Assembly (NCBI GenBank): GCA_963969365.1
Contig: OZ017765.1
Coordinates: 53,501-117,500, forward strand
Direction: 5' to 3'
Source of the DNA: Asterochloris sp. CNOR1
Lineage: Eukaryota; Chlorophyta; Trebouxiophyceae; Trebouxiales; Trebouxiaceae
Length of the DNA: 64,000 bases
Below, piece after piece: positions 12,239 to 50,400 of the stretch. How positions within the stretch are numbered: the stretch's first letter is position 1; each line of letters starts with the position of its first letter. The position numbers and the translations under genes were made by a program. The notes under the pieces were generated by a model. The model was given only the letters and a program-made list of their open reading frames with translations, was not told the DNA's origin and ran no database searches.

Positions 12239-16023
<3,785 letters not shown>

Positions 16024-24589: not shown

Positions 24590-24841
24590 ATGTCTGGTGC
24601 TACTGGAGAAAGACCTTTTTCTGATATTTTAACCAGTATTCGTTACTGGGTAATTCATAGTATTACAATCCCGTCTCTATTTATTGCAGGGTGGCTTTTT
24701 GTGAGTACAGGTCTTGCGTATGACGTTTTTGGAAGTCCGCGACCAAACGAATATTTTACCGAAGACCGCCAAGAAGCTCCATTAATTACTGACCGATTTA
24801 ATGCATTAGATCAAGTAAAACAATTGTCTGAAGTAAGTTAA
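24590..24841 (+). CDS. psbE: cytochrome b559 alpha subunit
   Basis: The 83-residue product starts [20 protein letters not shown], the PsbE signature. It has one membrane helix and His23 as the axial heme ligand shared with PsbF. Cytochrome b559 is needed for photosystem II assembly and protection. An AAGGAG ribosome-binding site at 24576-24581 sits eight bases upstream. It leads the ancestral psbE-psbF-psbL-psbJ order on the plus strand, but here the psbE-psbF and psbL-psbJ spacers have grown to over 500 bp. Confidence 0.98.
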
Positions 24842-25561
<720 letters not shown>

Positions 25562-25580
25562 AAACCTTAAATTAGTAATT

Positions 25581-25697
25581 ATGGCTAAACCAAACCCTAA
25601 CAAACAATCTGTTGAATTAAATCGTACTAGTTTATATTGGGGACTGCTTTTAATTTTTGTCTTAGCTGTTCTATTCTCGAGCTATATCTTTAATTAA
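25581..25697 (+). CDS. psbL: photosystem II reaction center protein L
   Basis: The 38-residue product ([20 protein letters not shown] start, SSYIFN end) is full-length PsbL, a one-helix subunit at the photosystem II dimer interface. It starts with a genomically encoded ATG. It lies 19 bp after psbF, so the two are surely co-transcribed. Confidence 0.98.
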
Positions 25698-26231
25698 AAG
25701 GCCAAACCTTGTGCTTCTAGTGGCAAAAAATCCCTGCGAACGTAAGCGCAAGTGCTTGCAGAGCACGCAACTCTGAGGCCGAAAGAGAACGTGTAACCAA
25801 AGTCAACTCCTAGCAAAACACATGTTTCTAACGTTGGTCCGTAGCAAAAGGTTGTTTGCTTACCCAAAATGCAGTTATTGTCGCCAAAAGCAACACGTGT
25901 TGTATCTCAGCTAACTGCGTTCCAGCTAATGCAAAGCACTAACCTCTTGCTATGCACTAATGTTGAGCAAAGCGCTTTCCTTTGGACCATCTTTGGTTAA
26001 ACACGCAAAAGGCAAAATCGATTCTTTTCAAAACCAAGCTAATGTTACGTTCTACGGAATCTAATTGAAAGTTCTGTGAAGCGACACGTTTAGGGTAGGT
26101 TGTGTAAAGTAAAACATGTTGTTTCCTTGGCCGCAACAAGTTGAATCCTTTTACTCGGACAAAGTCACAAGCACCAGGTTTTGGTATGCACGTGCTCAGT
26201 TTTTTAAAATTAAATATTTAGGAGAAATAAG
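25698..26231. other. psbL-psbJ spacer
   Basis: 534 bp with degenerate family A and C fragments and no gene. Confidence 0.6.
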
Positions 26232-26369
26232 ATGTCTAATACTAATAATACTGGAACTACTGGACGTATTCCTTTATGGCTTGTGGGCACCGTTGTAGGT
26301 ATTGCAGCACTTGGTTTGCTTACTATCTTTTTTTATGGATCATATGTAGGTTTAGGTTCATCTCTATAA
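26232..26369 (+). CDS. psbJ: photosystem II reaction center protein J
   Basis: The 45-residue product has an N-terminal segment [20 protein letters not shown], one helix, and ends [13 protein letters not shown], all typical of PsbJ. The S/T/N-rich start is a few residues longer than the common 40-42. A GGAG ribosome-binding site (26220-26224 area) lies seven bases before the ATG. PsbJ takes part in photosystem II assembly near cytochrome b559. It is the last gene of the expanded psbEFLJ group. Confidence 0.97.
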
Positions 26370-27604: not shown

Positions 27605-28617
27605 AAGCACCTTAATTCTTTCACATGTCCAACCAATCGATCGACAAAGATGGTTTAAAAGTAAACCTGGTTTTTGGTCTGTAAAGTGGGAAACACGTAC
27701 ATTGGCTTTTGAAATGTTTCTTCATGTGTAAAACGCTATTTGGTTATACCTGTTGCGGCCGCGGTATCGAATTTTGCTTGTTTTTTCTGTTGACCTAAGT
27801 GCTTTGCATTAGCTAGGTTTAAAGCTACTTTTGCTTTCCTACGGAGACAGAGAAAACAGTACACTCAAAACAGTAAGTTACAAGTCACAGAACAAAAACG
27901 TTTTGTTTGTCGGACAAATTGCTTTTTATCTTCTTGTAATCTACGGGAATGCAAAGCAAATTTCTCTTTAAAGTGTTTCGCTCCTCCAACATAAACGTTT
28001 CATTTAACTTTTTGCTACGGTTACGTTTTTTAAGTAAGGGGTGGTTAATACTTTTTACTATACATAATTTTCGGTTGTATTTTTTGTTTTAAACTAGATT
28101 GTAAATAAACGTAACCAAAGACAACACAATGTAAAGATAAACTACATAAAGTAACACGACTATATAACAATAAATTGGTTTTGCTACCGTGATTCCATGT
28201 TTTCAGTTAAAGGACTCGGCAAATCAAAAAGATAGGTTTTCCTTGTTCCTGCAATCGAAAGTCCAGGTAGACCTGTTTTTATTAAAAAAAGCTTTATTTA
28301 AATCTTTTCATTGGCCGGTTGTAACGTTGTATAAAGCAAACAGATGAAACACGTGTTACCTTTGTTTGTGTTACCTGCTACTTTTAACCAAAGGTCTAGC
28401 TATCCTTAAAATTGCACTTCCAGAAACCAGCTTAACCGTTCGAGTACACAATAGGACAATGTTACACGCAGACGAAACAAAACCAAGGCGTGGTTTACTT
28501 TTGCTAACAATAACGATCACAACGCCCCCAAAAAACATTTTAATAAATGTAATTTAGAGTCTGTTGAAATAAGAAATCATAAAAACCTGTTTGAAAGGTA
28601 ATCGGCGGCCTTATAAT
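27605..28617. other. intergenic upstream of ffs
   Basis: 1.0 kb, poor in dispersed repeats. A start-less frame at about 27574-27730 contains a protein-like stretch (WFKSKPGFWSVKWETRTLAF) that I cannot assign. Otherwise nothing is seen. Confidence 0.4.
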
Positions 28618-28723
28618 CCAAAACGGTCTAACTTCTGTAACGTTAAGTCTTGAACCATGCCAGGACTCTCAAGTAGCAGCATTAAAGGTTTAATGTAGCC
28701 GGAACAGTTAGGCCCCTATTTGG
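28618..28723 (+). ncRNA. ffs: plastid signal recognition particle RNA (4.5S-like)
   Basis: The segment tgaaccatgccagg (28650-28663), then act-ctca-agt, then agcagcattaa, matches the conserved domain IV of bacterial-type SRP RNA. In that domain GAACC, CAGG and AGCAGC flank a short stem with a tetraloop. Here the apical stem act/agt closes the loop ctca instead of GGAA. Outer pairing supports the ends: ccaaa (28618-28622) with tttgg (28719-28723), and ggtctaac with gttaggcc. The length of about 106 nt fits a 4.5S RNA. The product would work with cpSRP54 in co-translational targeting of thylakoid proteins. The ends are approximate. The motif order and pairing are seen directly; the function is from family knowledge. 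Confidence 0.8.
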
Positions 28724-29480: not shown

Positions 29481-29552
29481 AGGCGACACCCAGATTCGAA
29501 CTGGGGGATGAGGGATTTGCAATCCCCTGCCTTACCACTTGGCTATGTCGCC
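29481..29552 (-). tRNA. trnC-GCA: tRNA-Cys (GCA)
   Basis: The minus strand folds as a 72-nt cloverleaf. The acceptor is ggcgaca/tgtcgcc, the D-arm has ccaagtggtaagg, the anticodon GCA sits in loop ttgcaaa, and the T-arm is cccagttcgaatctggg. It reads UGY cysteine codons. Confidence 0.95.
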
Positions 29553-32103: not shown

Positions 32104-35100
32104 ATGAAATCTCATTACAACATAATTTCGTTTCTTATTCCTGATTTTGTAGAGATTCAAAGAAACAGTTTTGTTTTCTTTTTACTCGAAGGGTTTGTTA
32201 AAAGTTTTTCAAAGAAAAAACGCATTAGAGATAGCAAACGCAGGTATAGATACCAACCAAAACCTTACTTGAATCTGTTTCTTTATCCTGAATATTATCA
32301 GCTAAATTACCCAGAACATTCACCAACTCAAGCGGTATTGAAAGGAAAAACTTACGAAAGTAAACTTTATGTGCCAGCTCAATTAGTTAATAGGCGAACA
32401 AAAGAGGTGTCTACTGAATGGGTGCTTCTTGGAAATTTGCCTTTAATGACCAAACGGGGTCATTTTATAATAAATGGTTCTCCTAGAGTAATTGTTAATC
32501 AGTTGGTCCGAAGCCCTGGAATTTATTACAATCAGGGTTATGACACCCAAGGCAATCTTATAATTTGGGGGGACTTGATTCCGCAACGTGGTACTTGGTT
32601 AAGGTTAAAGAAGGACAAAAATGGGACCGTTTGGGCTTTATCAAAGTCAAAACCAAAGATCGAGGCTGTAGCGCTCCTTCAAAGTTTTGGATTACAAAGA
32701 AAGGAGATAAAAGCTGAAGCACCAAACGTATACAGAGAACTACTGTTATATTACCCACCCCCAGGAGAGAAAAAGGAACCAATCGAGGTCGGCCATTTGA
32801 CGAAAGAGGCTGCCCTTGTTAGGTTGTACTCCTACCTTAACCCAATAGTTGGCGATTCCAATTACAATTACGTTAACTATCGCACGAAAATTATATACGG
32901 TAAAAAGTTCTTATATAACGAATTTCAAAGCGCTGCAAATTACAATTTAAGTGAGTTAGGTCGTGGTCGATTAAACAACCTCTTTGGTTTAAGGGAAGAT
33001 CAATTAACATTAACCACAAGAGATCTCCTTTTCGCCATCAACTTGATTTATGAGGTGGAATACAAAACAAAAACAATTGACGATATTGATAGTTTAAGAA
33101 ACAGAAGAGTAAGAACCTCTGGTGAATTAATTAGGAATCAAATAAATGGTGCCCTTGTCAACCTAAAGAAATCTATTCAAAAACAGATGAAAGAGAAGAA
33201 AAACAAAATTCATCTTCAAAATTTGGTAACCACAAAACACGTCAACGGCTCTTTGCGGGAGTTTTTTGGGACCAACCCACTTTCACAATACATGGATCAA
33301 ACCAATTCCTTAGCAGAAATAACTCACAAACGCCGTATAACCTCGTTAGGTCCTGGGGGCATTAAACGTGAAAGTGCAATTCAAGTTAGAAGTATACACC
33401 CTACTTATTACGGCAGGATTTGTCCTATTGAAACACCAGAAGGTAGAAACGCAGGGTTAGTAAATTCAATTACAGTATATTCCCAAATCAACTCGCAAGG
33501 TTTGCTCCAAACGCCCTTTTGTAAAATATATAAAGGTCAAGTTCAATCAAAACGTGAAGTTTCTCTTTTTTCTACCGAACGCGAGGGTGAAATCAATTTA
33601 GCTCCAGCTGATCTACAACTCTCGAAATTAGGTTTTTTACAACTTGAGAACGTGCCAATTAAAATGAATGAAGAATACCGATCCACTTTATCGAGTCAAG
33701 TAGAATATACAGCTATCTCACCCCTACAAATGATTTCTGTAGCAACATCGTTAATACCTTTTTTAGAACATGATGATGCTAATCGTGCCTTAATGGGATC
33801 AAACATGCAACGACAAGCTGTACCTCTAGTCTCGCCACAAGTACCAATCGTTGGTACAGGTTTGGAATCGCGAACGGCTGCAAATTCTGGACATCTTGTA
33901 GAGTCGAAAACGTTTGGTTATGTATCTTACGCAAGCGGGAAAAAAATACAAATTCAACCTTTTAAAGGTTTACGTTTTCAAGAATCCACCTGCAAAGGAA
34001 AAAGCGCGGATTGCCTTTTTCAAGTGATACAAAGTGGAGATGTCGTTTTTCACAAAGGCGGAAATGCAGATGAAAGTGAAAGTAAAGCTGTGGATCGAGG
34101 TCGAGTTAGGGGAAAAGGTGGAGGTAGAGGTGTTTCGAAACACCTTCACCCTCACCTCCATTTTCAACCCAGCTACCATCATCATCCCGACGCTGGTAAA
34201 CAACCAAATGGATCGCGACTCAAGAACTGTAAAACAATCAATCGTCGGCCTAAGATTACAGTAGTGTTGCTTGGCCCTCTATCTGTTGAAACACCACTAC
34301 GAGATACTTTGTATCACGTCGCGCAGCACGTCCCGAAACAAACATTGCAACATGAAAAAAGGATTTCTCGCCCTTTGCGGGCAAAACACGCCGCAAAGCA
34401 ACACGTTCAAAAAAGGCCGGAAAGCAGAATGCAAACAGAACAAAGGGTGCAGGGATATCGTTTTACTTTTACGGAGCATCTTGCCTGTTCGTGCTTTGCA
34501 CGATCGACTTCAGCAAAAGTCTTGTCTTTGTTTTGTGATTGCTTGTCACCCCCTTTTTACCAGTTGCAAGGAAATGGTCTTGCTTGTCCTACCTACGGTT
34601 CAAAAAGACGTGGAGCGAACCACCTTGTAGCAAAACACAGAACTGTTATTCAGCCGAGATGGGGTAGCAGTCAACTACAAACGTCTTCGTACAAAGCAAA
34701 GCAAGTAAATCTTTATTCGACCTCATCTTGCTTTTTTCGATTGCTTGGCACGACAAAGTTTGCTCGTACTAGTTTGCGTGAGTATGATTGGTTGCAAAAT
34801 CAAGTTAACTTACCGTTAGATGGAAAGTACGTGTATTACGTGCCAACCACATCTTCTTTTACTATTAACTGCCTGTCCGAAGGAAGACGTGTTATCGATT
34901 CATGGGACGCAAATTCATCAGAGGTAAAGCGTTTGGTTGAATCACTTGGTTGTTTTCAGACCTGGAGAAGTTGTTGGGAATGCTTCTCATGGCGGACAGA
35001 ATTCTCGTGTTTCTTGTCTTCGACTTTAACTCTGTTTTTATCTTCACCTAGTACTATACGGAGCAAACATATTGCTTTGAGTCGTAATTCCGATCACAAC

Positions 35101-37176
35101 GTACCACTTGTTTACCAACATGGAATTAATAGTCGTGATTACCTCAACTCTGTACAGTCCGATTTTGTTTTCTCACCTGCGAAGCAACAACTTACAACCC
35201 AAAAAGGGTTGAAAAGCTGTTTTGTGTCCTTTGCGACCAAAGGTAAGACAAAACAAACGATTGGTCGCAGATTTAAAGCGGACCTTTTAAGCCGAGTAAA
35301 GGTTGCTGTTGCATGGACTAATTCGAATGCTTTGCTTCCAAAAGGTTCGGTTTTAACGCTTAAGTCAAATTTGTCTTTAGACGGTACAACAAAACGATTA
35401 AGTTATGCTTTGCCACTTAATGGGTTCAACACATGTTTCACAAGTCTAGTTAATAATAGGCCGGTAAGAGGTATCGAAGGTGTATCAAAGATTCTAGGCT
35501 GGTCCAAATCAATAGAATATCCTTTACAAGTTTATGAGCGATCAAACCAAGAAACCTGTTTGACTCAAAGACCTACAGTTATGGAAGGGGATTGGGTTCA
35601 GAAAGGGGATTTATTGGCTGATTCGTCATCTAGTGTTTCAGGTGAAGTTACTTTAGGTAAAAACGTGTTAGTAGCTTATATGCCGTGGGAAGGTTACAAT
35701 TTCGAAGATGCTATTTTAATAAATGAAAGACTGGTTTATGATGATGTTTTTACCTCAATTCATATTGAGCGATATCAAACCCAACTTGCAAGGTATGATC
35801 TTTGGAATTCCAAAACATACGTACATTCAGTTGTTGAGGAACTTTGGCCTGAGGTGCGAAACACACCTTCTTATATGCGTAAACAGCAATCCACAAACAA
35901 GACAAGACACCTAGATGGGGACGGGATAGCAAAAATTGGTAGTTGGGTAGTTGAAGGTGATATCTTGATAGGAAAGTACCAAGAAGTTGTAGACGACCAG
36001 CTCTCTCCTTACGAGAAACTTCTTTTTGAAATCACTGGACCCTCCTACCAGATGCGAATCCGTGACAAATCCTTAAGAGTTCCAAAAGGAGTAGAAGGCC
36101 GAGTTGTAAGGATTGAGGTATTAGAATCCCAAGAGGATTTGAGTGGTAAGCAATTGGCGATTGGAGCCAAGACTCGTAGTAGGTACCAAACAGGTCTTAC
36201 TTGGAATACTTGGGACCCTTGGAACACACATCGACTTAGGTTACGCGCCAATCAACTGTCAAAGCGAATTGCAAAGCATGTGTCCACCTGTGTTACAGCT
36301 AACAGGTCAAAACTTGCAATTGCAAACCTGACCTCCGTTTATTGGAAAGAGAACAATACGCTTTTCCCTTCTAATAGAAACGCCCAGTTGTTTGGCGGTC
36401 TACGTATTCGTATCTATTTGGCAGAAAAACGGAGAATTCAAGTAGGAGACAAAATGTCTGGTCGCCATGGAAACAAAGGAATTGTGTCAAAAATCTTACC
36501 AAGGCAGGATATGCCTTATCTTCCTAACGGCTCGCCAATTGATATCGTTCTCAACCCTTTGGGAGTTCCTTCTCGGATGAATGTGGGGCAAGTTTTTGAA
36601 TCGTTGTTAGGGTTGGCTGGAATTCATTTAAATCAACAATTTAAAATCCTTCCTTTTGACGAACTTTATGGTTCTGAAGCTTCTCGTAGTTTGGTTTATT
36701 CGAAACTTTACCAAGCCCGCTTGAAAACTGGACAGAATTGGTTGTTTAATCCCGAAACTCCCGGAAAAATGCCCCTTTTTGATGGTCGTACAGGACAGCT
36801 TTTTGACCAGTCAGTAACTGTAGGTCAAGCCTACATGTTAAAACTTATTCACCTTGTAGATCACAAGATTCATGCCCGGTCGATTGGCCCTTATGCGTTA
36901 ATAACTCAACAACCTTTGAGAGGTAAATCAAAAAAGGGGGGGCAAAGAGTAGGTGAGATGGAAGTTTGGGCCTTTGAGGGGTTTGGTGCGGCTTATACCC
37001 TACAAGAGCTTTTAACTGTAAAATCTGACGATATAAAAGGCCGACTCCAAGTAATGGACAGTATTTTATATAAAAGAAATGTAGTAGTGGGTAGACCTGC
37101 TGCGTTTGAAGTTTTAATTAAAGAACTTCAGTGTTTATGTCTTAAAGTAACTACCTTTCGAAACTCTTGCTCGTAA
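32104..37176 (+). CDS. rpoB: plastid RNA polymerase beta subunit, with a ~500-residue insertion
   Basis: The 1690-codon frame encodes the beta subunit of the bacterial-type plastid polymerase. Recognisable blocks in order are LIPDFVEIQRNSF near the N-terminus, GRICPIETPEGRNAGLVNS (about 437-455), FLEHDDANRALMGSNMQRQA (about 555-574), PLQVYERSNQETC (from 1140), MPWEGYNFEDAILINERLVY, DKMSGRHGNKGIVSK (from about 1449), and the C-terminal FDGRTGQLFD...EMEVWAFEGFGAAYTLQELLT. Residues about 620-1135 replace a loop of about 20 residues in bacteria. They have no domain I recognise and contain repeat-derived DNA, including an 18-bp palindrome at 34128-34145. A second insertion of about 90 residues precedes DKMSGRHG. 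I see no intein junctions and no intron. The ATG at 32104 gives the family N-terminus and has a weak ribosome-binding site. Confidence 0.96.
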   Translation: MKSHYNIISFLIPDFVEIQRNSFVFFLLEGFVKSFSKKKRIRDSKRRYRYQPKPYLNLFLYPEYYQLNYPEHSPTQAVLKGKTYESKLYVPAQLVNRRTKEVSTEWVLLGNLPLMTKRGHFIINGSPRVIVNQLVRSPGIYYNQGYDTQGNLIIWGDLIPQRGTWLRLKKDKNGTVWALSKSKPKIEAVALLQSFGLQRKEIKAEAPNVYRELLLYYPPPGEKKEPIEVGHLTKEAALVRLYSYLNPIVGDSNYNYVNYRTKIIYGKKFLYNEFQSAANYNLSELGRGRLNNLFGLREDQLTLTTRDLLFAINLIYEVEYKTKTIDDIDSLRNRRVRTSGELIRNQINGALVNLKKSIQKQMKEKKNKIHLQNLVTTKHVNGSLREFFGTNPLSQYMDQTNSLAEITHKRRITSLGPGGIKRESAIQVRSIHPTYYGRICPIETPEGRNAGLVNSITVYSQINSQGLLQTPFCKIYKGQVQSKREVSLFSTEREGEINLAPADLQLSKLGFLQLENVPIKMNEEYRSTLSSQVEYTAISPLQMISVATSLIPFLEHDDANRALMGSNMQRQAVPLVSPQVPIVGTGLESRTAANSGHLVESKTFGYVSYASGKKIQIQPFKGLRFQESTCKGKSADCLFQVIQSGDVVFHKGGNADESESKAVDRGRVRGKGGGRGVSKHLHPHLHFQPSYHHHPDAGKQPNGSRLKNCKTINRRPKITVVLLGPLSVETPLRDTLYHVAQHVPKQTLQHEKRISRPLRAKHAAKQHVQKRPESRMQTEQRVQGYRFTFTEHLACSCFARSTSAKVLSLFCDCLSPPFYQLQGNGLACPTYGSKRRGANHLVAKHRTVIQPRWGSSQLQTSSYKAKQVNLYSTSSCFFRLLGTTKFARTSLREYDWLQNQVNLPLDGKYVYYVPTTSSFTINCLSEGRRVIDSWDANSSEVKRLVESLGCFQTWRSCWECFSWRTEFSCFLSSTLTLFLSSPSTIRSKHIALSRNSDHNVPLVYQHGINSRDYLNSVQSDFVFSPAKQQLTTQKGLKSCFVSFATKGKTKQTIGRRFKADLLSRVKVAVAWTNSNALLPKGSVLTLKSNLSLDGTTKRLSYALPLNGFNTCFTSLVNNRPVRGIEGVSKILGWSKSIEYPLQVYERSNQETCLTQRPTVMEGDWVQKGDLLADSSSSVSGEVTLGKNVLVAYMPWEGYNFEDAILINERLVYDDVFTSIHIERYQTQLARYDLWNSKTYVHSVVEELWPEVRNTPSYMRKQQSTNKTRHLDGDGIAKIGSWVVEGDILIGKYQEVVDDQLSPYEKLLFEITGPSYQMRIRDKSLRVPKGVEGRVVRIEVLESQEDLSGKQLAIGAKTRSRYQTGLTWNTWDPWNTHRLRLRANQLSKRIAKHVSTCVTANRSKLAIANLTSVYWKENNTLFPSNRNAQLFGGLRIRIYLAEKRRIQVGDKMSGRHGNKGIVSKILPRQDMPYLPNGSPIDIVLNPLGVPSRMNVGQVFESLLGLAGIHLNQQFKILPFDELYGSEASRSLVYSKLYQARLKTGQNWLFNPETPGKMPLFDGRTGQLFDQSVTVGQAYMLKLIHLVDHKIHARSIGPYALITQQPLRGKSKKGGQRVGEMEVWAFEGFGAAYTLQELLTVKSDDIKGRLQVMDSILYKRNVVVGRPAAFEVLIKELQCLCLKVTTFRNSCS
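34128..34145. repeat. 18-bp perfect palindrome inside the rpoB insertion
   Basis: aggtgtttcgaaacacct is its own reverse complement. Flanking purine-rich and pyrimidine-rich segments (gtggagg on the left, cctcca on the right) extend the pairing to roughly 34118-34160. The hairpin sits in the middle of the inserted coding region. Confidence 0.9.
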
Positions 37177-37812: not shown

Positions 37813-40800
37813 ATGAAACTCAAACAAACTCAGTTTAGTGGGATACAAATAGGGGTAGCATCACCAACACAAATAAAACGTTGGGCAGAGCAGTATTTGC
37901 CTAATAATTACATTATAGGAGAGATTAGAAACCATCAAACACTAAGTTACAAGACACTGGAACCAGTGCCAGGTGGTCTTTTCTGTCAACGTATCTTTGG
38001 TCCAATAAGGAGTTTTAAATGTTCTTGTAGAAACCCAAAAAGTCAGACAGATCCTTTAAAAAAGTTCTGCCCTCAATGCCTTACAAAATTTACTTACTGT
38101 AACGTTCGGAGACACCGTCTTGGGTATATAGGGCTAGCTTTTCCTGTGGTTCACCTTTGGTACTTAAGAGGTCGAATAAATTACATTTCGATCTTGTTAG
38201 AGCGAGAGGGTCGTCGAAAATCTAAAAAAAAAGTAAAAGATATTACTTATTGCGCAACAACATCAAGTTTTTTTGAACCTGAATGTGGATTACTACTTGG
38301 CCCTCTTAAACCTTTTTTCCACCTTTTACCCTTCCCGAGAATGATGATACATCGTGAACAACCGAGGAAATGGAACGAGGAAATAGTGGATCGTTGGGAC
38401 TTTTCTTGTTTTCCTAAATTTTGTACAAACCCCCCTAATTCAACTGATCGTTTACTTGAGCAATATCAAAAAGTTATCACCTTACCGAACTCTACTACCC
38501 GTACGACTACTTTTTTGAGTCACCAAAGGCATCTTTCTTTAGAACAAGCACATCTATTATTACCTTTGACCGCGAATCCTACAGCACCGATTAATCCTAC
38601 CCCAAACGATCAAAAGCCGATCAATTTGACCAATCAAGAAAATGATTGGCATCTTCCGTGTCTACTGCCTTCCATACCAAAGCAATCGGCGGACAATTTG
38701 TTTCCTACGGACAGTTACATGGCCAGGTACTTGCTTCGCACAGGTTCAAACAAAACACCTTTAATGCAGGCTGCTTTGAGGTCCAACATAGAAGTGAAAA
38801 AGGTTGAGCTGCCAACCAAAAGTGTAGTAAATTTAAACAAAGTGGAAACACCTTTGCGATACCAATACTCTACTTTACCAGGTATCTGCACCCATCATAG
38901 ACCGGTTGCTTCTTTGTGGAGCCAAATACCTCTTGCCTTACCACCACGTGCTTTGCTGGTAAACAACGGTAATGTGCGAATTTGTGGTACCGAAATCTTT
39001 TCCGACAAGCAGGTCGAATGGTATTTGTATACCACACAATACAGGTGCCCTTTGTCAACTCTACAGATTTTGCTCAACACCAAGTCTTTACGTTTGCGTG
39101 ATTCTCAAAAACGCGAAATCACGCCAGCCACCCGAAAAAAGCGAATATTACTCTTGAATCGTTCAAACAAGCACCATAACTTGTTTTCCACCAACAACAA
39201 GGTACAAGACACGTTGGTGCGTAGCAAAAGGTGGAATTGGAGCGCACCATCACCTCTCCCTTTGGAGTACAGACTTGGTAAACATGTGTTGAACCCATTA
39301 AGTGCCACCAACCAAGGTAAAGTATTTCCATTCACGTTTAATGATCTGTGCCAAACACTTGGCAAAGCACGTCGCGAGGATCAGCCATTCGATTGCCGCG
39401 CACGCAAATCTCAAGCCACCTTTGGTAAAGCTATTTACCAATCACGTTTTCATACGGAGAACACATACTGTGAAATTGGTCTTGCTTTAGTTAAAGAAGA
39501 GCTATTGTTTATAAAGTATTTGGGCAGGTGGAAAAAACAAATCCGGTGCATTGGTCGATTTTCTGTTTTACCAACAGTTCGAAAACAGTATAGAAGAAAA
39601 GTTAGAAAAAAGCGTTTGCAAGCACGTATCGCCCAAGGTGTTTTGACAGTCGAACCATTTGCAACAATCATTCGGAACAAGCAATTGGAGCAAGCAAACA
39701 ACCGGTTTACTTCGGTAGATGCGATAGGCTTTTACAAGAAAACAAAGGTTAAAGGTTTGTCTCCCAACTCTACTTACAAGTGTAGGTGGGGGTCGAGCGA
39801 AGCACCTTTGTCTTCACCACCACCTAAACCTTGGAGAGTTGTCCCAGCTAACGTGGGTTTAGTTGGTACCAACCGACAAGTAATAGAAGGTTTTTCGATC
39901 CTAAAAGCTCGAATGGATAGTTTAAAAGTTCGAGCGATTTGTCGTATAATAACCTCGATTTTACTTTATAAAACACAAAAAAGGTTTGGGTTTATTACTT
40001 TTAGTCAAGCAGGGGACAAGATACATGAACGGTTGGAATTTAGTCGTAAAAGTGGCCTCGATCAATTTGTTGAAACAATTGGTTGGCTTGGAAACGAGCA
40101 ACATGCGTCAAAACCTGGAAAAGCTGACTTGTACCAAGTAGCGAACTACTTGTCGACTTGCTTTGGAAACTGGTTGACAACAAATCAATCGTCTTCCTAC
40201 AAACGTGCTGTTTCACGACCGCAAATAAGATGGCAACCGCTCAAGGTGCGGTATAAAAAAACTTTGTTTGCATATAACCGCCTTAGAAACAAAAAGAAAA
40301 AGGAAATTCCTCTTGCTGCTATCCAGGCCATGTATGGCCTAAGATTGTGTGATGCTCCGAAAAAGGAAAAGGAAACAAAAAAAGATCGAGTTAAGAGATT
40401 CTTAGGTTGGCTGAAATTACAACCAAACAAATACGAAAAGTACTCTTGCCACAGTTTTAAAAACCCAAGATTTCACCTATTTATTAATTTCCCTTCTGAC
40501 AAACATTCCATTTACAGCACATCGACGAAATGGTCTCGGTGTAACGAGCCACGTCTTGCTTTTTCCCAAGTTGAATCGCTTGACTCGCGACCACAGGTAG
40601 ACCTTCGGTTAGACCCTCGGTTAGACCCTCGGTTAGAACAAGAAACAGTCTTTAAAACCACTTGCTTTGCACGTACACACACACGTGTACCTTACAAAAG
40701 CAGTTCACTTTCTAGAAAATGGTTAGCCACGTCTTTTATCGCAGGTTTAGCGCGTAGTAAGCGTAACTTGCAAAAAGTATCTTTCAAATGGTGGGCCTCT

Positions 40801-43476
40801 CAAAAATTAAATGAGAGTCAAAAACAAATACCCACTTTGTACCAACCTCAACCCGGAGTGTTACTTGATCCTGTGAAATACCCTATGAAAGATCCCAAAG
40901 TATCCGTAAACTGGATAAAAGGTTTCACCAAAGCTCGTGTGAAGCAAAAAAAAGGTGGCGTTCTCCAACAATCTTCACCCTCTCCTGAAATGCGTGCAGA
41001 TATACAACGTAAATGGGCAGGTCTTGCTTCCATCGATCAATTGTGGTATAAGCAGTTTCTATCTTTGGTGCAAAGCAACACGTTGAATGAAGCATCTCTT
41101 CTAGAAGCGAAATACAACCTTCGGTTAGCAATGGAACAAGCAAACAAAGAAACCCTATCACCTGTATCTTTTACACCTGTAAAGTTTGTGTCAAGCAAAA
41201 GAGGTTTGTTTAAAACAAGAGCTGGTTACCCTACAACCAAGCAATTCGAAAAAATACCTTGTCTAGTCCTAGAAAAGCCCCAATACAGGTCCCATTTGTT
41301 ATTAGCTGGTCCTTTGTTTCAACAGGTTTTGTTTTGCGCGGCAAAAGTAGATAAAGAAAGTTCGGCTTTACCTGATACGAGTTTGGTTTCTTCGTGGAGC
41401 GAAGCAGTTGGTACGTTAAAATCATCTGACTTCTACCAACTAACCACTCAATTTGCATGCCGTTCCTACACTCAAACACACACGCGAATCACAATTACAT
41501 TGGGGGAATTTACTGTTAAAGATGCCAACTTTCCCAGACAAAAGTACGTGGTATTTAAACCTACTTCCAAACACAAGTACATGACAGGCAGGCCTAGAGT
41601 GCTTAGGTTTGGAACTAAAGGTATCAATTCTCGTAGACAACTCTTCCGGACGACAAACAGGTTTACCGCACAGAACCCAGTCATATTGTCACCTCTACGT
41701 GAGACTCAAATGACTGGCGGTGTAGCCATTAAAAAAGAACTTAACAGCCTCAACTTGAAACAAATATATAAAAACTTTAAGGTTGAGCAACTTTCTAAAC
41801 TAAATTTTCAGATTGCCAATGTAGAAAACAGAGACTGGCTTCCACGAAAAAGACGAAGAAGACTTAAAAGATTAAATGAGCGTCGGTTGAGGATTGTTCG
41901 TCGTTTAACGGTAATAAAAGATTTGTGCCGAAACAAGATTAAACCTGAGTGGATCACGTTGTCCCACTTGCCAGTTCTTCCACCTGCTTTACGGCCTATA
42001 ATTGAATTAGATGACGGCCAACTTGCAGTTTCTGACCTCAACACCTTTTATCAAAAGGTGTTTCTTAGAAATCAAAGATGTTTAGAAGACGAGAGTGAAG
42101 GAAAATGTAAAACTTACTACCAACGCTTGTTACAAGAGTCGGTAGATGCTTTAATTGAAAACGGAAAAGGAAATCGCCCTGTGTCAACACCAAAAGGCAG
42201 GCCTCTTAAATCATTTTCAGACATATTAAAAGGCAAAAAAGGTCGGTTTAGGCAAAATCTGCTTGGTAAACGGGTTGACTATTCCGGACGTTCGGTAATT
42301 GTAGTAGGACCCACTTTAAAACTTCACGAGTGTGGATTACCACTTGAAATGGCTCTCGTACTGTTTCAACCGTTTTTAATACGCCAGTTAATTGTAACTC
42401 GAGTTGTTTTTACAATTGTAAAAGCCAAGAGATTGTTGCAAAAGTTTAGTCAAAGTTTTTCAAAAACAAGTAACAAGTTTTCTCTTGTGGAATCCACTTT
42501 TAATTCTGCACAACTTGAAAACTTCTCTACAAGCAGCTTTTCCTTGGCTAGTCAATTAAAAATCTTGGAGATACTACAACAAGTTATGCGAAACCACCCT
42601 ATTTTGTTGAACAGAGCTCCTACCTTGCACCGTTTAGGGGTACAAGCATTTCAACCCAAATTGGTTGATGGCAAAGCTATACTTTTGCACCCTTTAGTTT
42701 GTCCTGCTTTTAATGCTGATTTTGATGGTGATCAGATGGCTGTTCATCTTCCTTTGTCGTTAAAGGGAAGAGCAGAAGCTTGGAAGATAATGTGGTCAAG
42801 AAACAACTTGTTGTCGCCTGCAACAGGACAACCTATTCTTGTTCCAAGTCAGGACATGGTTTTAGGTTGTTACTATTTAACAGCTTTAAAAAACAAATCG
42901 TTAGATTATCAAAAAACTAACTTTCGATTACCACAAAGCAAGACCGGATCCAAATCAAAACATCGTGCCAAGCAAGTGCTGTCAAAGAACACGTGTAAGG
43001 CATATCAACCACAAGCTTTGCCCGCGAAACAACGGTTATCGGATACCAATTCATTAGACGTTACTAAACAGCTCAGTCAACCAAAACTCAACTTGGCTTT
43101 ACAAGTAAAAACAGGTACTAAGGAGCCATATTTGGCCTTTTATGATTTTTGTTTCACCGGCTTCAATGATGTGTCAAAAGCTTATTATCAAAACAAACTA
43201 CAACTCCACACCCCCGTTTGGGTTAGAGTTTCTGAAAGTGCCAACCATGAGTCTGAAAAGGGTTTAGAAGAACCTCTAGAGGTAAGAATCTCTTTGTTTG
43301 GTAACTATGATTTGTTGTTTCCAACATACCAATGTAGTTATAACAAAACAAAACAGATTTCGAGTCTATATATACGAACTACTCCCGGTCGAATTATATT
43401 AAACAATGTAATATCTGCAATTTCGAGTACCAAACCAACTAGTTTTTCTAAATTTGACGAGCCTCACCCTAACTAA
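37813..43476 (+). CDS. rpoC1: plastid RNA polymerase beta' subunit (N-terminal half), greatly enlarged
   Basis: The 1887-codon frame is about two to three times the usual plastid RpoC1. The N-terminal zinc ribbon is intact (Cys70, Cys72, Cys86, Cys89). The catalytic core lies near the C-terminus: LLGKRVDYSGRSVIVVGP (about 1484-1501), LLNRAPTLHRLGVQAFQP, and the Mg-binding NADFDGDQMAVHLPLS with aspartates at 1636-1640. The frame ends shortly after TTPGRIILNNVI, as in RpoC1. Between about residues 140 and 1360 most sequence has no family counterpart and is partly repeat-derived, including an in-frame 12-bp tandem at 40605-40639 (RLDP repeats). TGGAGGT at 37802-37808 is a good ribosome-binding site. 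No introns or split-gene stops are present, unlike the fragmented rpoC1 of Chlamydomonas. Confidence 0.96.
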   Translation: MKLKQTQFSGIQIGVASPTQIKRWAEQYLPNNYIIGEIRNHQTLSYKTLEPVPGGLFCQRIFGPIRSFKCSCRNPKSQTDPLKKFCPQCLTKFTYCNVRRHRLGYIGLAFPVVHLWYLRGRINYISILLEREGRRKSKKKVKDITYCATTSSFFEPECGLLLGPLKPFFHLLPFPRMMIHREQPRKWNEEIVDRWDFSCFPKFCTNPPNSTDRLLEQYQKVITLPNSTTRTTTFLSHQRHLSLEQAHLLLPLTANPTAPINPTPNDQKPINLTNQENDWHLPCLLPSIPKQSADNLFPTDSYMARYLLRTGSNKTPLMQAALRSNIEVKKVELPTKSVVNLNKVETPLRYQYSTLPGICTHHRPVASLWSQIPLALPPRALLVNNGNVRICGTEIFSDKQVEWYLYTTQYRCPLSTLQILLNTKSLRLRDSQKREITPATRKKRILLLNRSNKHHNLFSTNNKVQDTLVRSKRWNWSAPSPLPLEYRLGKHVLNPLSATNQGKVFPFTFNDLCQTLGKARREDQPFDCRARKSQATFGKAIYQSRFHTENTYCEIGLALVKEELLFIKYLGRWKKQIRCIGRFSVLPTVRKQYRRKVRKKRLQARIAQGVLTVEPFATIIRNKQLEQANNRFTSVDAIGFYKKTKVKGLSPNSTYKCRWGSSEAPLSSPPPKPWRVVPANVGLVGTNRQVIEGFSILKARMDSLKVRAICRIITSILLYKTQKRFGFITFSQAGDKIHERLEFSRKSGLDQFVETIGWLGNEQHASKPGKADLYQVANYLSTCFGNWLTTNQSSSYKRAVSRPQIRWQPLKVRYKKTLFAYNRLRNKKKKEIPLAAIQAMYGLRLCDAPKKEKETKKDRVKRFLGWLKLQPNKYEKYSCHSFKNPRFHLFINFPSDKHSIYSTSTKWSRCNEPRLAFSQVESLDSRPQVDLRLDPRLDPRLEQETVFKTTCFARTHTRVPYKSSSLSRKWLATSFIAGLARSKRNLQKVSFKWWASQKLNESQKQIPTLYQPQPGVLLDPVKYPMKDPKVSVNWIKGFTKARVKQKKGGVLQQSSPSPEMRADIQRKWAGLASIDQLWYKQFLSLVQSNTLNEASLLEAKYNLRLAMEQANKETLSPVSFTPVKFVSSKRGLFKTRAGYPTTKQFEKIPCLVLEKPQYRSHLLLAGPLFQQVLFCAAKVDKESSALPDTSLVSSWSEAVGTLKSSDFYQLTTQFACRSYTQTHTRITITLGEFTVKDANFPRQKYVVFKPTSKHKYMTGRPRVLRFGTKGINSRRQLFRTTNRFTAQNPVILSPLRETQMTGGVAIKKELNSLNLKQIYKNFKVEQLSKLNFQIANVENRDWLPRKRRRRLKRLNERRLRIVRRLTVIKDLCRNKIKPEWITLSHLPVLPPALRPIIELDDGQLAVSDLNTFYQKVFLRNQRCLEDESEGKCKTYYQRLLQESVDALIENGKGNRPVSTPKGRPLKSFSDILKGKKGRFRQNLLGKRVDYSGRSVIVVGPTLKLHECGLPLEMALVLFQPFLIRQLIVTRVVFTIVKAKRLLQKFSQSFSKTSNKFSLVESTFNSAQLENFSTSSFSLASQLKILEILQQVMRNHPILLNRAPTLHRLGVQAFQPKLVDGKAILLHPLVCPAFNADFDGDQMAVHLPLSLKGRAEAWKIMWSRNNLLSPATGQPILVPSQDMVLGCYYLTALKNKSLDYQKTNFRLPQSKTGSKSKHRAKQVLSKNTCKAYQPQALPAKQRLSDTNSLDVTKQLSQPKLNLALQVKTGTKEPYLAFYDFCFTGFNDVSKAYYQNKLQLHTPVWVRVSESANHESEKGLEEPLEVRISLFGNYDLLFPTYQCSYNKTKQISSLYIRTTPGRIILNNVISAISSTKPTSFSKFDEPHPN
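40605..40639 (+). repeat. 12-bp in-frame tandem repeat in rpoC1
   Basis: About three copies of tcggttagaccc encode RLDP-RLDP-RLEQ near residue 932. The unit length is a multiple of three, so the frame survives amplification. Confidence 0.9.
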
Positions 43477-44427: not shown

Positions 44428-47400
44428 ATGTCAAACTCGATCATGACCGGAAAACCTAAAAACTTAACGCTTTCTTCTATAGGTATTGTTTTGCATAGGG
44501 TTGTTTGGCCTACTACTAAACACGTCGAACTCTACCAACCAGTTGTGCAAGGTGGAAGCGTGCTTAACCGCCTCTACTTGGGGCCGCAAAGCAGTCAATC
44601 AGCAAAGCAACTATGTTGCAAAGCAATTGGTAATGAAACAAGCAGTACGCGAATTGATGGGCCACGAACCGTTCGGAACAATCGGTTGGTCGGTACGCAA
44701 ACAGTCCAAAGTCACAAAGAATCATTGATATGCTCGTGGAAGTCGATACCAACAAGGCAGATGCGAGTTGTGTGGTGTCAAGCAATAAAAAGCCAATCAG
44801 TAAGAAGCGAATGGATTGGTCAAAAGAAAACCTTGAAAAGTACCCCTTTAAAGACAAGCCAAGTTAGTACCTTTTACCTTTTTTGGTTTTCATCTTGGCA
44901 CGTAAAACACGTAGTTGTGCGTAGCAAGACAAAGTGGTTTCGTCCATCTTTCGCGAACGTTTGTTTCTTAACCTGCTGCGCTTTACCTACTTGCTTTGCA
45001 CCAGAAAGTAATGATTTCTTTTTCAATTATTCTTTTGACAAAAACCGTATCAAAGCCTTACTCTCATGGTCCTTAATGCACTTTGGAGAGAAAGTTGCTT
45101 TGGACATGGTAGAAAAAATAAAACAGATTGGTTTTGAATATGGTACACGTGCGGGAGCTTCTCTAGGTTTAGAAGATTTAAAAATACCATTAAGTAAAAC
45201 CGCTTTAGTAGCTCAAGCTGAGTTAGATGTACAATTCACACAAAATTCTACCTTACAATTCAAAGTTACAGCAATTGAACGGTTTCAACATCTTATTGAT
45301 ACGTGGCATAGAAGTAGTGAGAGTTTAAAAAAAGATGTAGTTCAACACTTCCGTTCAACTGATTTGCTTAATCCTGTTTACATGATGGCTTTTTCGGGGG
45401 CACGTGGAAACATCTCTCAAGTGAGTCAATTAGTGGGTATGCGAGGTTTAATGGCCGACCCACAAGGGCAGATTATCAGTTTCCCTATTCGTAGCAACTT
45501 TCGTGAAGGGCTTACTCTTACAGAATATGTTATTTCTTGTTATGGTGCACGAAAAGGGTTAGTTGATACAGCGTTACGAACAGCTAACGCAGGTTATTTA
45601 ACACGACGCCTTGTAGATGTATCTCATCATGTTATAGTTTCTCAGTTTGACTGTAAAACAAATCGAGGTATTTTCCTTACACCGTTGTTTGAGAACGGTA
45701 AAATTCGTCTACCCCTTGAAGCTAGATTACTAGGTCGTGTCTTAGCACAAAACATTTCGAATTCAGAAAAATCAAAAGGCAAACCAGTATCAAATTTACA
45801 AACCAAGGTCTTGCTTGGCGCAGGCAAGAAGAGAAGGATTCCCAAATGTTTTGGTAAAAGATGGAGAGAAAACCAAGCAAGACCTTGGGTTAAGGTCTGG
45901 CAGCCAAATGCAGAACCCAAAGTAGAGCTTATTGGATCACGAAATCAACAGATTTCACACAATTTAGCTGAAAAGATTGCTGCTTTAAGAGACAAAGTAT
46001 TAGTCCGCTCACCCTTAAGTTGTAATCGGACAACTTCAATTTGTCGGTTGTGTTATGGTTGGAGTTTATCCGAAGGCAAACTTGTTCCTTTTGGTGAAGC
46101 TGTTGGTATTATTGCAGCCCAATCAATAGGTGAGCCTGGAACCCAGTTAACAATGAGAACCTTCCACACAGGAGGGGTTTTTTCTGGTGATGTGGTAGAT
46201 GAGATAAGAGCTCCCCACAAAGGGCTGATTGAGTTTTCAACCCCACTTCAAGGCAAATTGGTGCGAACTTCTCACGGCAAAATAGCTTTTCGAACAAAAA
46301 CAAAAGGTGTGTTGAGAATCAACCAATCGGGTCCGCTTGTTTCACCTACGGTTTTGCTTCGCACAAGCGACGAAGATCAAGGGAAAGGAGTTGCTTCGCA
46401 CAGGTATCAAGATAAACAAGAGAGACAAACCAAACAAACGGTACTACCCCAACCAACAGATGCAACTGAGATTACAATTCCACCGTTAACAGTTTTATTT
46501 GTACGACAGTTCGAAGAGGTAGTTCCAAATCAACTTGTTGCAGAGATTCCTGTTGGAGCAACACAAATTGATGAGAAAGTTAGAGAGTCGTACAAGTTGT
46601 TTTCTGAGTTAGAAGGTAAAGTGCTTTTTGACACTTTAATGATACGTCTTGCACAAAGAGATAACAATAAAAGCACTCAAAAAAGTGTTCATTTGGGCTC
46701 GATTTGGGTTCTCTCGGGGAAAATATACAGAGCATCTTATGAGTGGCAGTTTTTTCCCAAAATCGGTGATTTTGTTGACCAAAGGGCTGTTTTAAACCAA
46801 TTCACCACTACCGTTCTGTGGGAAGGCTTTGTTTCCAAGTTGGCACCAACATCACTTTCTACTGGAGTGTACACTACTACTTTAGGGCGGAAAGCACGTG
46901 GCGGTCTGATGAATTCGACTGATTGGTTAGTATCAGATCAATTCACGGGACAGAATTCGCGAACTAGATTAGTAAAATCACAAAGATTAAATCGGATTGG
47001 TCGATACCAAGGCCAACAAAAAGGTTTGTTAAGGGTTTATTTCTCTACCGGCCGGTGGAATCCTGTTTTCGATGCCTTGCCAGGGAAGATTTCGAGGAAG
47101 AAACGTAATTTATCAACAACAAGTACAAGCAAATGTTTGCCTTCGCAAAACCTTGCCAAGCAAACAACCAAAGGTTTAACGTCTCAAAGCAAACAGCGTT
47201 TACAGACAATGTATCAGCAAGAGCAGATTTACGTTAATCAGCCTTTCTTTTCGATCCCATTAATGGACCTTCAATACAAAAGGGTGGGTTATTTGCTTTC
47301 CCTTTCCAATAGCCGAAAAAGCGGATTTTTTTATTCTAGTTTCGTTTCACAACCACTTGGAATTCAAGGTAACAGCTCTTACCTGGCACAGTTTGTTGAC

Positions 47401-50400
47401 ATCGACACTACCTTAGGTTTCTTACCCTTAGAAACTAACTCGAAAAGTTCGAATTCTTGGTTAATAGGGGAAATTCTATCCTCAACAAACCTACTTACAA
47501 CACACGAACTCTGTCTGCGGTTGTACAACCCAAAGCAAGATTTTTCGGGACAACCTTTACACGTAAAAAAACGTAATAAAGTGAAACAAGTGGTTGTATC
47601 GGTATTACGTACCAAATACAAGGGCCTTTGGAACAAGCAGTTTAAGGTAGCAAACAACAATGGTTATGCTTTTTCGTTTTTAGGCAAGGATCACGAGCGA
47701 AGCATGACAACAAAACAAGACCAATTTCTTGGGGTAAATTCTTTGTGTAAAAACTTTAAAACAGTTCGTGAGATTTCCAAAGCCTTCCGTTTGGGATGGT
47801 TTCCCATTCAATATAAAACAGAAACAGGTACTTTAACATACAATTTAGAACTTTATTCAGGTAAAAACTTTTCTCGAGGTTCACTGTTATGGGTTGTTGA
47901 GGAAGGGTATAGAGTTAAGTACCTTCAAGACTGTAGAAAACATTACACCTCTTCTTGGTTATGGTCTTTGTTGCGTTGTAGAAGGATTTTTCCACGCTTG
48001 TTAATTACAACCTCTTTCAAAAACAAAAAAAGTAAGAGTTTTCGTGTTAATCAAGAAATGGTTTATTCCAACAACAAGCAACTGTTATTGGAACAAAATC
48101 TGCACCTATTCCCAGCAACACAAGGTAAAGGTGGTTCCCATCAACACCCCCCTTCGACCGCAAAACAACACCCTGATGTCTACAAGCAAGCAGGTAACAC
48201 CCCGATCATTAAATCAAAACCTTTTGTTCCTGCAAGAAAAGGAAAGGGTGTGCCAACTAATTCTTACAACCGATCGATCAAATACACTACTGGTTTGTTG
48301 GGTGCCAAATATTTTTACCTAGTGCAAACGGTAAAAATAGCTCTTGTTTCACACAAGGTTGAGTTAAAGCCGACTCGTTCAACGACCTTGGTACGAAGCA
48401 ATACTACTTACAGTGGCGAAAAACCTGCGTCTACGAACTCCTTAGTAAACAAAACAAAACTGAAAGCAAACACTTTAGCAAACACAAATTCACCAGCTAG
48501 AGCAATCAGATGGTACGCAATTGAACAGCAACCAATCGAACAACAACATCTCAAAGGAAAACAAAAGTACCGTGTTAAGCAAGATCAACAACTACTTGAT
48601 CCGTACGTGTCCACTGAAAACAAAGAAGGGAGCGAAACTAAAGCAAGACAATTGGTAAGGTTTGCTTGGCACAAGGCTAATAAACTGCGAGTTTCTAACG
48701 ATTCTCTTGGTCTTGCTTTACCTTCGGTCGCGAAGCAACAGCAACTGAAATGGGTAGAAAAGGGGTTTCTTTTAGGATTACGAACTAATTCACAAGGCAA
48801 TCAAGTATCATTAACCGCCCCTTATAACGGGTGGTTGACTGTTAAAGCACCTCGTCCGGAGGGAAAACCTTTTCTTACGTACTCTGCAGAACCAACCAAA
48901 AACGTCCATCATTTATTGGGTAACCGTTCTCGACTTATGGTTGACTTTCCATACACGTTTTCCTTGGGTAAAGACAAAAACAAAAGTCGACGTTCAGTCT
49001 TTATAAAAAAAACCAAACCCTACCTGTTTCGCCATCTTCATCAACACTTCCAAACAGCAAAAGAGATTGCCAATTTATCGATGGTAAAACAGGTAGCAAA
49101 GCGTGTCGCAAAACATTTGGTTGCTTTACTAACCGAAGGTCTTGCTTTGTACGGGGAGGAGGGTGTGTTACTTGGTATCAAAGACGGTGACGGTTTGAGT
49201 AAAGGTTCGACCTTTGCTTTTCAAAGGTCGAAGACCCATTCTCTACAACAAAGTGTAAGCCAGTCTTACCGAACAAGAATTCAAGTTTCTTCGGCCTTAC
49301 TGATAACCACAGCGCGAGAATTAACTTGCAAATCGCAAAACAGAAAAAGATTGCTTGCTTTAAACCTGTTACAAACAAAAATTACACCAGTTTTTTTTCC
49401 TTCTTTAAACCAAAAAGTTGAGCAAACAACTCAAATCTTTTACGGGCCAAGCAAAACCTTTTTTACGGTAAAAAATCGTCTTTTTTCTAATCGACCGTAC
49501 CAATCATGCGATTTAACACCTACACCAGCTAGTTATAACAGCAGGCATAACCTTGGTTTTTGTTCAGGTTTTGCTTTACATGCCTTTAAACCCTTTTTAT
49601 TGAGTTTTTCACGCCGTCGGGCGCACAGATACAAAACTTTGATAGAAAACCCTTGCTTCTACATTGGCTTAGTTGGTGATGTTTCGCAACCCCTTGTTGC
49701 TTCGCACGTACCGCTTACTATTCGAAAGGGGTGCTTTGTAACAAGTGTTGATGGTACTGGTCAAGTTAACAACTGTTATTCTAAAAAACTTTTATCATCG
49801 GGGGTTGGACAAAACTCGTTTTCCAGTGTGGAAGGAGAAACAAGATTTTGCTCTATCAATTGTGGAACCGTTTTTGATTTCCGAAAAGCAATATTAGAAA
49901 GAAAAGGTTGGGAACTGAACCAAATAAGATCAAGGAACGTAACCTTCGATTACATCGAGCCGCATCCTCACTTTAATTACAGCGCGTCACTTAAAGGAAC
50001 ACTTGCTTCGCACAACGATTGGCGCAAAACAAAAGGCTTGTTTTTCGATTTTTGCAAAGCTATACCTCTCCAAAATAACAGTAATAGTTTGTTTATGGCG
50101 AAAGGTAGTGATACAAATCAGTTTAACCCACACCTTCATGCCACTAATCAATTGAAACAAAAAAATGTTTTGGTGCAAAACATCACGCCTAGTGAACATT
50201 TTGAAACAGAGGCAAGTAAATTCCGCCGAAAAGAAAGTCTACTCTTATTGGGTGTTACGCGTCAAACAAAACACCAAATGGTTGGTTTGTCACCTACTCC
50301 TTGCATCTTGGAAAGGAAAGGGCTGCCGTTTGAGTCTTGTTGGCACTTAAAAGCCACACAGCTTGAAATTAAACCCGGTTTGTTCTTTTTCCCACAGACA

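Follow-up and report, generated by a model that had tools for sequence, protein, structure and literature searches.

The SRP RNAs of plastids vary more than those of bacteria, and atypical apical loops are widespread among those of charophytes and bryophytes, according to the accessible text of PMC5115805, which also records that putting GGAA into the apical loop of the Physcomitrella RNA raised cpSRP54 affinity 6- to 11-fold. The plastid SRP RNA gene (ffs) has been lost in many lineages and, where this has happened, the RNA-binding motif of cpSRP54 is mutated (PMC8321541, in the portions available). The question of why chloroplasts were able to dispense with this RNA, essential to the SRP of bacteria, is still open. 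In E. coli the RNA contains a C-loop, formed by residues 75-78 opposite 29-31, and closing this loop abolished translocon-stimulated GTPase activity and left the rate of SRP-FtsY assembly unaffected (accessible part of PMC5454536). Being a small plastid RNA gene, ffs can be missed by protein-centred annotation pipelines. Here we describe a candidate ffs in Asterochloris sp. CNOR1, an alga with a genome assembly of 56.4 Mb in 21 contigs. The candidate had been proposed in an earlier note, and it lies in the window analysed here, a stretch of 64,000 bases that corresponds to bases 53,501-117,500 of a 215,390 bp contig.

Plastid setting of the locus

The contig is a plastid genome, since it carries petB, petD, chlB-like, psbD/psbC-type, psbE, psbF, psbL, psbJ, atpB, atpE and rpoB/C1/C2 genes; our analysis of the window and three further loci (L021-L023) covered approximately 94 of its 215 kb. 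The psbD and psbC genes were assigned by their arrangement, a PF00124 reaction-centre gene overlapping a PF00421 gene in the window. The ffs candidate sits in the spacer between the psbE-psbF-psbL-psbJ cluster upstream (24590-26369, plus strand; Pfam PF00284/PF00283, PF00283, PF02419 and PF01788) and, downstream on the opposite strand, tRNA-Cys(GCA) (29481-29552, minus strand; ARAGORN and RF00005). The next recognised protein gene on its 3' side is rpoB (32104-37176, plus strand; NCBIfam TIGR02013 and NF001616), and no open reading frame of 30 codons or more with an ATG or GTG start overlaps 28624-28718.

Two other features of the window deserve mention. The rpoB, rpoC1 (37813-43476) and rpoC2 (44428-54972) genes are very long (1690, 1887 and 3514 aa, respectively) and their family matches are split into several stretches, which suggests that the plastid RNA polymerase contains large insertions. 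There is also a 176-bit match to the IsrR family (RF01419) at 15052-15238 on the minus strand, antisense within psbC. As IsrR is antisense to isiA, a relative of psbC, this match is probably conserved psbC coding sequence read in reverse and no RNA gene.

Identification of a plastid SRP RNA gene

The bacterial small SRP RNA model RF00169 matched positions 28624-28718 of the plus strand over its full length (model positions 1-97) with 42.2 bits and an E-value of 1.1e-5 (64 kb, both strands, 4227 families), only 2.2 bits above the gathering cut-off of 40. Because this margin is small, an independent covariance model, R2, was built from 26 cyanobacterial SRP RNAs, with the window sequence left out. 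For this purpose 30 of 80 petB loci were picked by their cyanobacterial label; RF00169 found a match in 26 of the 30 genomes, and the four misses were dropped. R2 matched 28625-28717 with 47.6 bits and an E-value of 7.6e-9 (such values are rough for purpose-built models), and nothing else in the 122,004 bases searched, plastid and nuclear, reached E<=10. The whole-genome RF00169 scan did not report the ffs site; it scored 52 of 10,307 first-look candidates, so its silence has no bearing on the matter.

Base pairing was assessed in a joint alignment with the cyanobacterial RNAs, the consensus structure of which does not differ from the one obtained with the 26 cyanobacterial RNAs alone. Standard pairs form in the algal RNA at 25 of the 33 consensus pairs. 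Among 5000 mononucleotide shuffles the average was 12.3 (sd 2.6) and the highest count 21, and sliding the partners by 1-3 columns left 10 to 18. In ten of the 25 kept pairs neither base is that of the cyanobacterial majority, against 6 to 10 such pairs in the slid controls; by themselves such double changes prove nothing, and it is the paired total that discriminates. The SRP RNA identity claimed in the earlier note is upheld by an RF00169 score above threshold, and on these comparisons we identify 28624-28718 (plus strand) as a plastid ffs encoding a bacterial small-type SRP RNA. It appears to descend from a cyanobacterial SRP RNA, because a model made from cyanobacteria only, with the window excluded, gives it 47.6 bits.

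The extent originally suggested was 28618-28723. A terminal CCAAA/UUUGG pairing (28618-28622 with 28719-28723, plus strand) closes the rod in the minimum-energy fold and may mark the full transcript ends, whereas the covariance models end at 28624-28718 or 28625-28717. The whole minimum-energy fold of 28618-28723 has a z-score of -2.9, and the end pairing is without comparative support. An exact TATAAT, resembling a -10 element, occupies 28612-28617 on the plus strand and ends six bases before 28624; with 22 copies of this hexamer on the plus strand of the 64,000-base window, we put the probability that a copy falls by chance no more than about five positions from where one would be expected at near 0.2%. 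A TTGAAA at 28591-28596 is separated from it by a 15-base spacer, shorter than usual and than the 16-18 bases of the scan rule; by that rule there was no promoter at ffs, and the promoter/terminator scan found no terminator-like site there.

Domain IV core and apical loop

The order of motifs read earlier from the sequence proved correct in every element: GAACC at 28652-28656, GCCAGG at 28659-28664, CUCA at 28668-28671 and AGCAGC at 28675-28680. Among the 26 cyanobacterial RNAs 42 columns are invariant, and the alga retains 23 of them: domain IV has kept 14 of its 18 and the rest of the molecule 9 of its 24. The four domain IV losses are a stem base (U to C, still pairing with G) and three bases of the tetraloop. 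The symmetric loop (CAGG at 28661-28664 on the 5' side, AGCA at 28675-28678 on the 3' side, plus strand, from the sequence alignment) keeps the C, A and G of its 5' side and the A, G, C and A of its 3' side, all invariant in the 26 cyanobacteria. Similarly, the asymmetric loop (GAACC at 28652-28656 and UA at 28683-28684, plus strand, from a constrained fold) keeps its two invariant A residues. Both loops predicted to bind SRP54 are thus intact in the algal RNA.

The apical tetraloop, by contrast, is GGAA in 26 of 26 cyanobacterial RNAs and CUCA (28668-28671, plus strand) in the alga, the invariant loop bases G45, G46 and A47 all having been replaced. The ACU/AGU closure that had been described for it was found at 28665-28674 (ACU at 28665-28667, AGU at 28672-28674). 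The loop-closing pair has changed on both sides, from a majority C-G in cyanobacteria to U-A; two cyanobacteria have a U-A or U-G closing pair and yet a GGAA loop. CUCA may be part of a longer loop, UCUCAA, as the energy model finds the three-pair stem alone unstable at 37 C; the ACU-GGAA-AGU stem of one cyanobacterium is likewise unstable alone under the same conditions. The unconstrained minimum-energy fold of the algal RNA lacks domain IV (-27.1 kcal/mol), and holding domain IV in place (-26.8 kcal/mol) costs 0.3 kcal/mol; domain IV is present in the minimum-energy fold of 23 of the 26 cyanobacterial RNAs.

To place the loop among bacteria more widely, we surveyed 398 Bacillota genomes, 271 of them matching a pattern with a fixed core and a ten-base tip, a design to which other tip lengths are invisible. 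At least 19 distinct tips were counted by eye among the matches listed. Eighteen are GNRA (GGAA, GGGA) or URRC (UGAC, UGGC) loops, 17 of these with three stem pairs and the other with two; one further tip lacks any stem pair and probably does not come from an SRP RNA. CUCA lies outside both loop classes of the sampled bacteria, and so the algal RNA does not carry the GNRA or URRC tetraloop of a classical bacterial SRP RNA. Such a loop is not required of a plastid SRP RNA, because that of Physcomitrella has a 10-base loop (accessible text of PMC5115805). The description of the loop as non-standard is accordingly apt with respect to bacteria and less so for plastids, odd SRP loops of which are already described in that text. 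A CUCA loop is not described in the accessible text of PMC5115805, PMC8321541, PMC4605306, PMC6244792, PMC8928634 or PMC2905702, a weak negative from a literature sample mostly without subscription papers and supplements.

Searches for other plastid or CUCA-bearing SRP RNAs gave no relative for comparison. A petB search of IMG/VR gave no relative, and the best 80 petB loci in GTDB contigs comprised cyanobacteria and two plastid-like contigs, yielding no plastid SRP RNA. These two contigs (89% protein identity to the alga) lie in bins labelled Clostridia and Lactobacillus, which are probably contaminated metagenome bins. Each of the two genomes also has one SRP RNA, which we rejected as plastid since its position cannot fall on the plastid-like contig (10,341 and 7,731 bp) and took as bacterial. 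The domain IV pattern found 31 stretches in IMG/VR, of which nine looked SRP-like by eye; Rfam covered these nine, seven passed its SRP model, and a CUCA-like loop is absent from all seven. A search with the exact 22-base core of the alga gave 0 matches. A tandem repeat in an Arthrospira genome (G030, C1:3728356-3729397) mimics the SRP RNA core pattern, with eleven GCCAGG...AGCAGC copies at 102-base spacing.

A bulged element beside domain IV is also changed

A second departure, absent from the earlier note, is the loss of the motif GAUGCU. All 26 cyanobacterial RNAs carry this motif immediately beyond the asymmetric loop, and their consensus fold leaves two of its bases bulged; in the alga four of its six positions differ. 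The placement of gaps in this region depends on the alignment (three deleted bases with R2, two with RF00169, none with MAFFT). With domain IV held, the bulged element is replaced in the predicted algal fold by an uninterrupted 12-bp helix (5' arm 28640-28651, 3' arm 28685-28696, plus strand), compared with a longest stack of 4-7 bp there in the 26 cyanobacteria; this helix, seen in one predicted fold, is absent from the unconstrained minimum-energy fold. The position of GAUGCU is near that of the E. coli C-loop hinge, and by analogy the cyanobacterial bulge may be a C-loop; E. coli 4.5S RNA scores only 25.5 bits against R2.

Nucleus-encoded partners

There are four SRP-type GTPase loci in the nuclear genome. 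The M domain of the cpSRP54 gene, on contig C14, carries SMTPQERSTPELLATGPSRRRRIARGSGRK, close to cyanobacterial Ffh, and matches solved M domains, some entries of which we take to be RNA complexes. Its RNA-binding motif (locus L017) reads SMT...SRRRRIARGSG, with SMT, SRRRR and GSG all retained. In cyanobacterial Ffh the motif was shown in 10 of the 12 loci fetched, and the residue preceding the Arg run is Ser in nine of them and Gly in the other; the Gly-bearing Ffh belongs to the genome of Oscillatoria PCC 10802. The cpSRP54 tail contains KVRRKKG, and the valine form of this tail motif is that of chlorophytes (PMC5115805, accessible text). Given the relationship between motif and gene loss outlined in the available portions of PMC8321541, the intact cpSRP54 motif leads one to expect an SRP RNA in this alga, and one was found.

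The gene on contig C3 is cpFtsY: among solved structures, one of its exons is matched best by five FtsY entries of plant type (E 7.9e-20 to 7e-18), and the others are at 7.1e-14 or weaker. Four of the five bear the label chloroplast or CPFTSY, and 2og2 that of putative SRP receptor. At the positions of E. coli FtsY K399, R402 and K406 (numbering from MG1655) the algal protein has K, R and K. Fourteen cyanobacterial genomes were searched for FtsY and one frame-broken gene was left out; K399 and R402 are present in 13 of the 13 proteins read, and residue 406 is K in 12 and R in one. The solved plant-type proteins have A, K and K in four entries, which we take to be one Arabidopsis protein, and G, R and K in 4ak9, presumably the Physcomitrella cpFtsY. 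In bacteria, FtsY K399 reportedly tethers the SRP RNA tetraloop. Lys399 and Lys406 lie in an FtsY pocket whose residues mostly recognise RNA (accessible part of PMC6059433).

A chromodomain search of the alga genome, made for cpSRP43, gave 37 matches. Many score identically and lie in open frames of up to 1179 aa on nuclear contigs C1-C4, C7-C10, C12, C14 and C16; these are probably chromodomain retrotransposons.

Discussion

From the sequences compared here, we consider it very probable that ffs encodes a functional cpSRP RNA which continues to bind cpSRP54 and in which receptor control has been weakened or changed. The gene would have been inherited from the cyanobacterial ancestor by this green alga, most likely a chlorophyte to judge by the plastid gene set and the cpSRP54 tail, and its RNA would fold into the bacterial small-SRP rod, with the symmetric and asymmetric loops binding the M domain of the nucleus-encoded cpSRP54. 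The resulting cpSRP would dock on cpFtsY and bring membrane proteins to the thylakoid during their translation, mainly those encoded in the plastid. We infer that the algal RNA is transcribed, binds cpSRP54 and functions, and CUCA would be expected to alter the association with FtsY. Since the tetraloop and the bulged element both work with the receptor in bacteria and both have changed, it is probable that the RNA serves chiefly as a cpSRP54 scaffold and that its stimulation of the cpSRP54 and cpFtsY GTPases is weaker or altered. The K/R/K patch retained on cpFtsY fits awkwardly with this scaffold role.

Weakened receptor control, taken to include a scaffold-only form of the RNA, has in our judgement a slightly better than even chance of being right. 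The scaffold-only form itself, in which selection kept the cpSRP54-binding core and released the FtsY-capturing tetraloop and the hinge by which the GTPases can travel to the far end, seems rather unlikely. If it were true, this alga would show a chlorophyte midway towards a chloroplast SRP that has no RNA, by a route separate from that of the moss and with the basic patch of the receptor kept. A core kept intact and two receptor-side elements changed, beside a receptor with the bacterial contact residues, would allow the two jobs of the RNA to be studied apart in a natural system.

A tentative alternative, short of an even chance, is that the receptor contact has been re-tuned and that the basic patch of cpFtsY still makes contact with the CUCA tip. 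This would account for the K, R and K at 399, 402 and 406 in a protein whose cyanobacterial relatives share K399 and R402 without exception among those read, when position 399 of the solved cpFtsY entries is Ala in four cases (probably one protein) and Gly in one. The retention of a four-base loop, against the 10 bases of Physcomitrella (accessible text of PMC5115805), is in keeping with it. However, all three loop bases that never vary in the 26 cyanobacterial RNAs have changed, and coevolution cannot be demonstrated from one protein.

It is very unlikely that ffs is instead a recent relic, decaying or dead, its loop and bulge changes marking a loss of function that leads towards a cpSRP without RNA. 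Of the four tetraloop bases three are indeed gone, as is GAUGCU, 8 of the 33 consensus pairs are non-standard, and plastid ffs has disappeared from many lineages, as the available portions of PMC8321541 recount. However, the change is uneven, domain IV having kept 14 of 18 invariants and the remainder 9 of 24; 25 of the 33 pairs form, including the loop-closing pair with both sides altered (the count of double changes is not above the slid controls); and cpSRP54 retains the very motif that is mutated where ffs has been lost (PMC8321541, same portions). The 8 non-standard pairs and the 9 of 24 invariants retained outside domain IV do count against the reading of a working RNA, and some decay is possible on their account. 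The narrow RF00169 margin, the unconstrained fold lacking domain IV, and the scan that showed neither a promoter by its rule nor a terminator-like site weigh in the same direction. Finally, a chance resemblance in an AT-rich spacer, which the RF00169 score near its cut-off might have suggested, is refuted by the R2 match (E 7.6e-9) and by pairing in excess of all 5000 shuffles, leaving it a negligible probability.

The working cpSRP RNA that we favour can be set beside four known systems. With the cyanobacterial small SRP RNA (RF00169) it shares length, rod fold, AACC, CAGG/AGCA and AGCAGC, and the cyanobacterial core GUCAGGACCGGAAGGUAGCAGC is recognisable in the alga; it differs in having CUCA for GGAA and, in the SRP fold, a continuous helix for the bulged GAUGCU. 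E. coli 4.5S RNA has the same M-domain-binding loops and differs by its GGAA loop and open C-loop. On the receptor side, the cpFtsY of 4ak9, presumably from Physcomitrella, has Gly where the alga has Lys. The Physcomitrella patens plastid SRP RNA also has a non-GNRA apical loop, of 10 bases (AAGUAAAUUA), whereas that of the alga stays at four (PMC5115805, accessible text). Ostreococcus tauri, compared by published description only, has symmetric and asymmetric loops as in the alga and, unlike it, a GNRA apical loop (same text). An odd apical tip is therefore an already known kind of plastid SRP RNA variation; what appears particular to this alga is the combination of a four-base CUCA and the loss of the neighbouring bulge with a predicted cpSRP54-binding core and a receptor basic patch that have both been kept.
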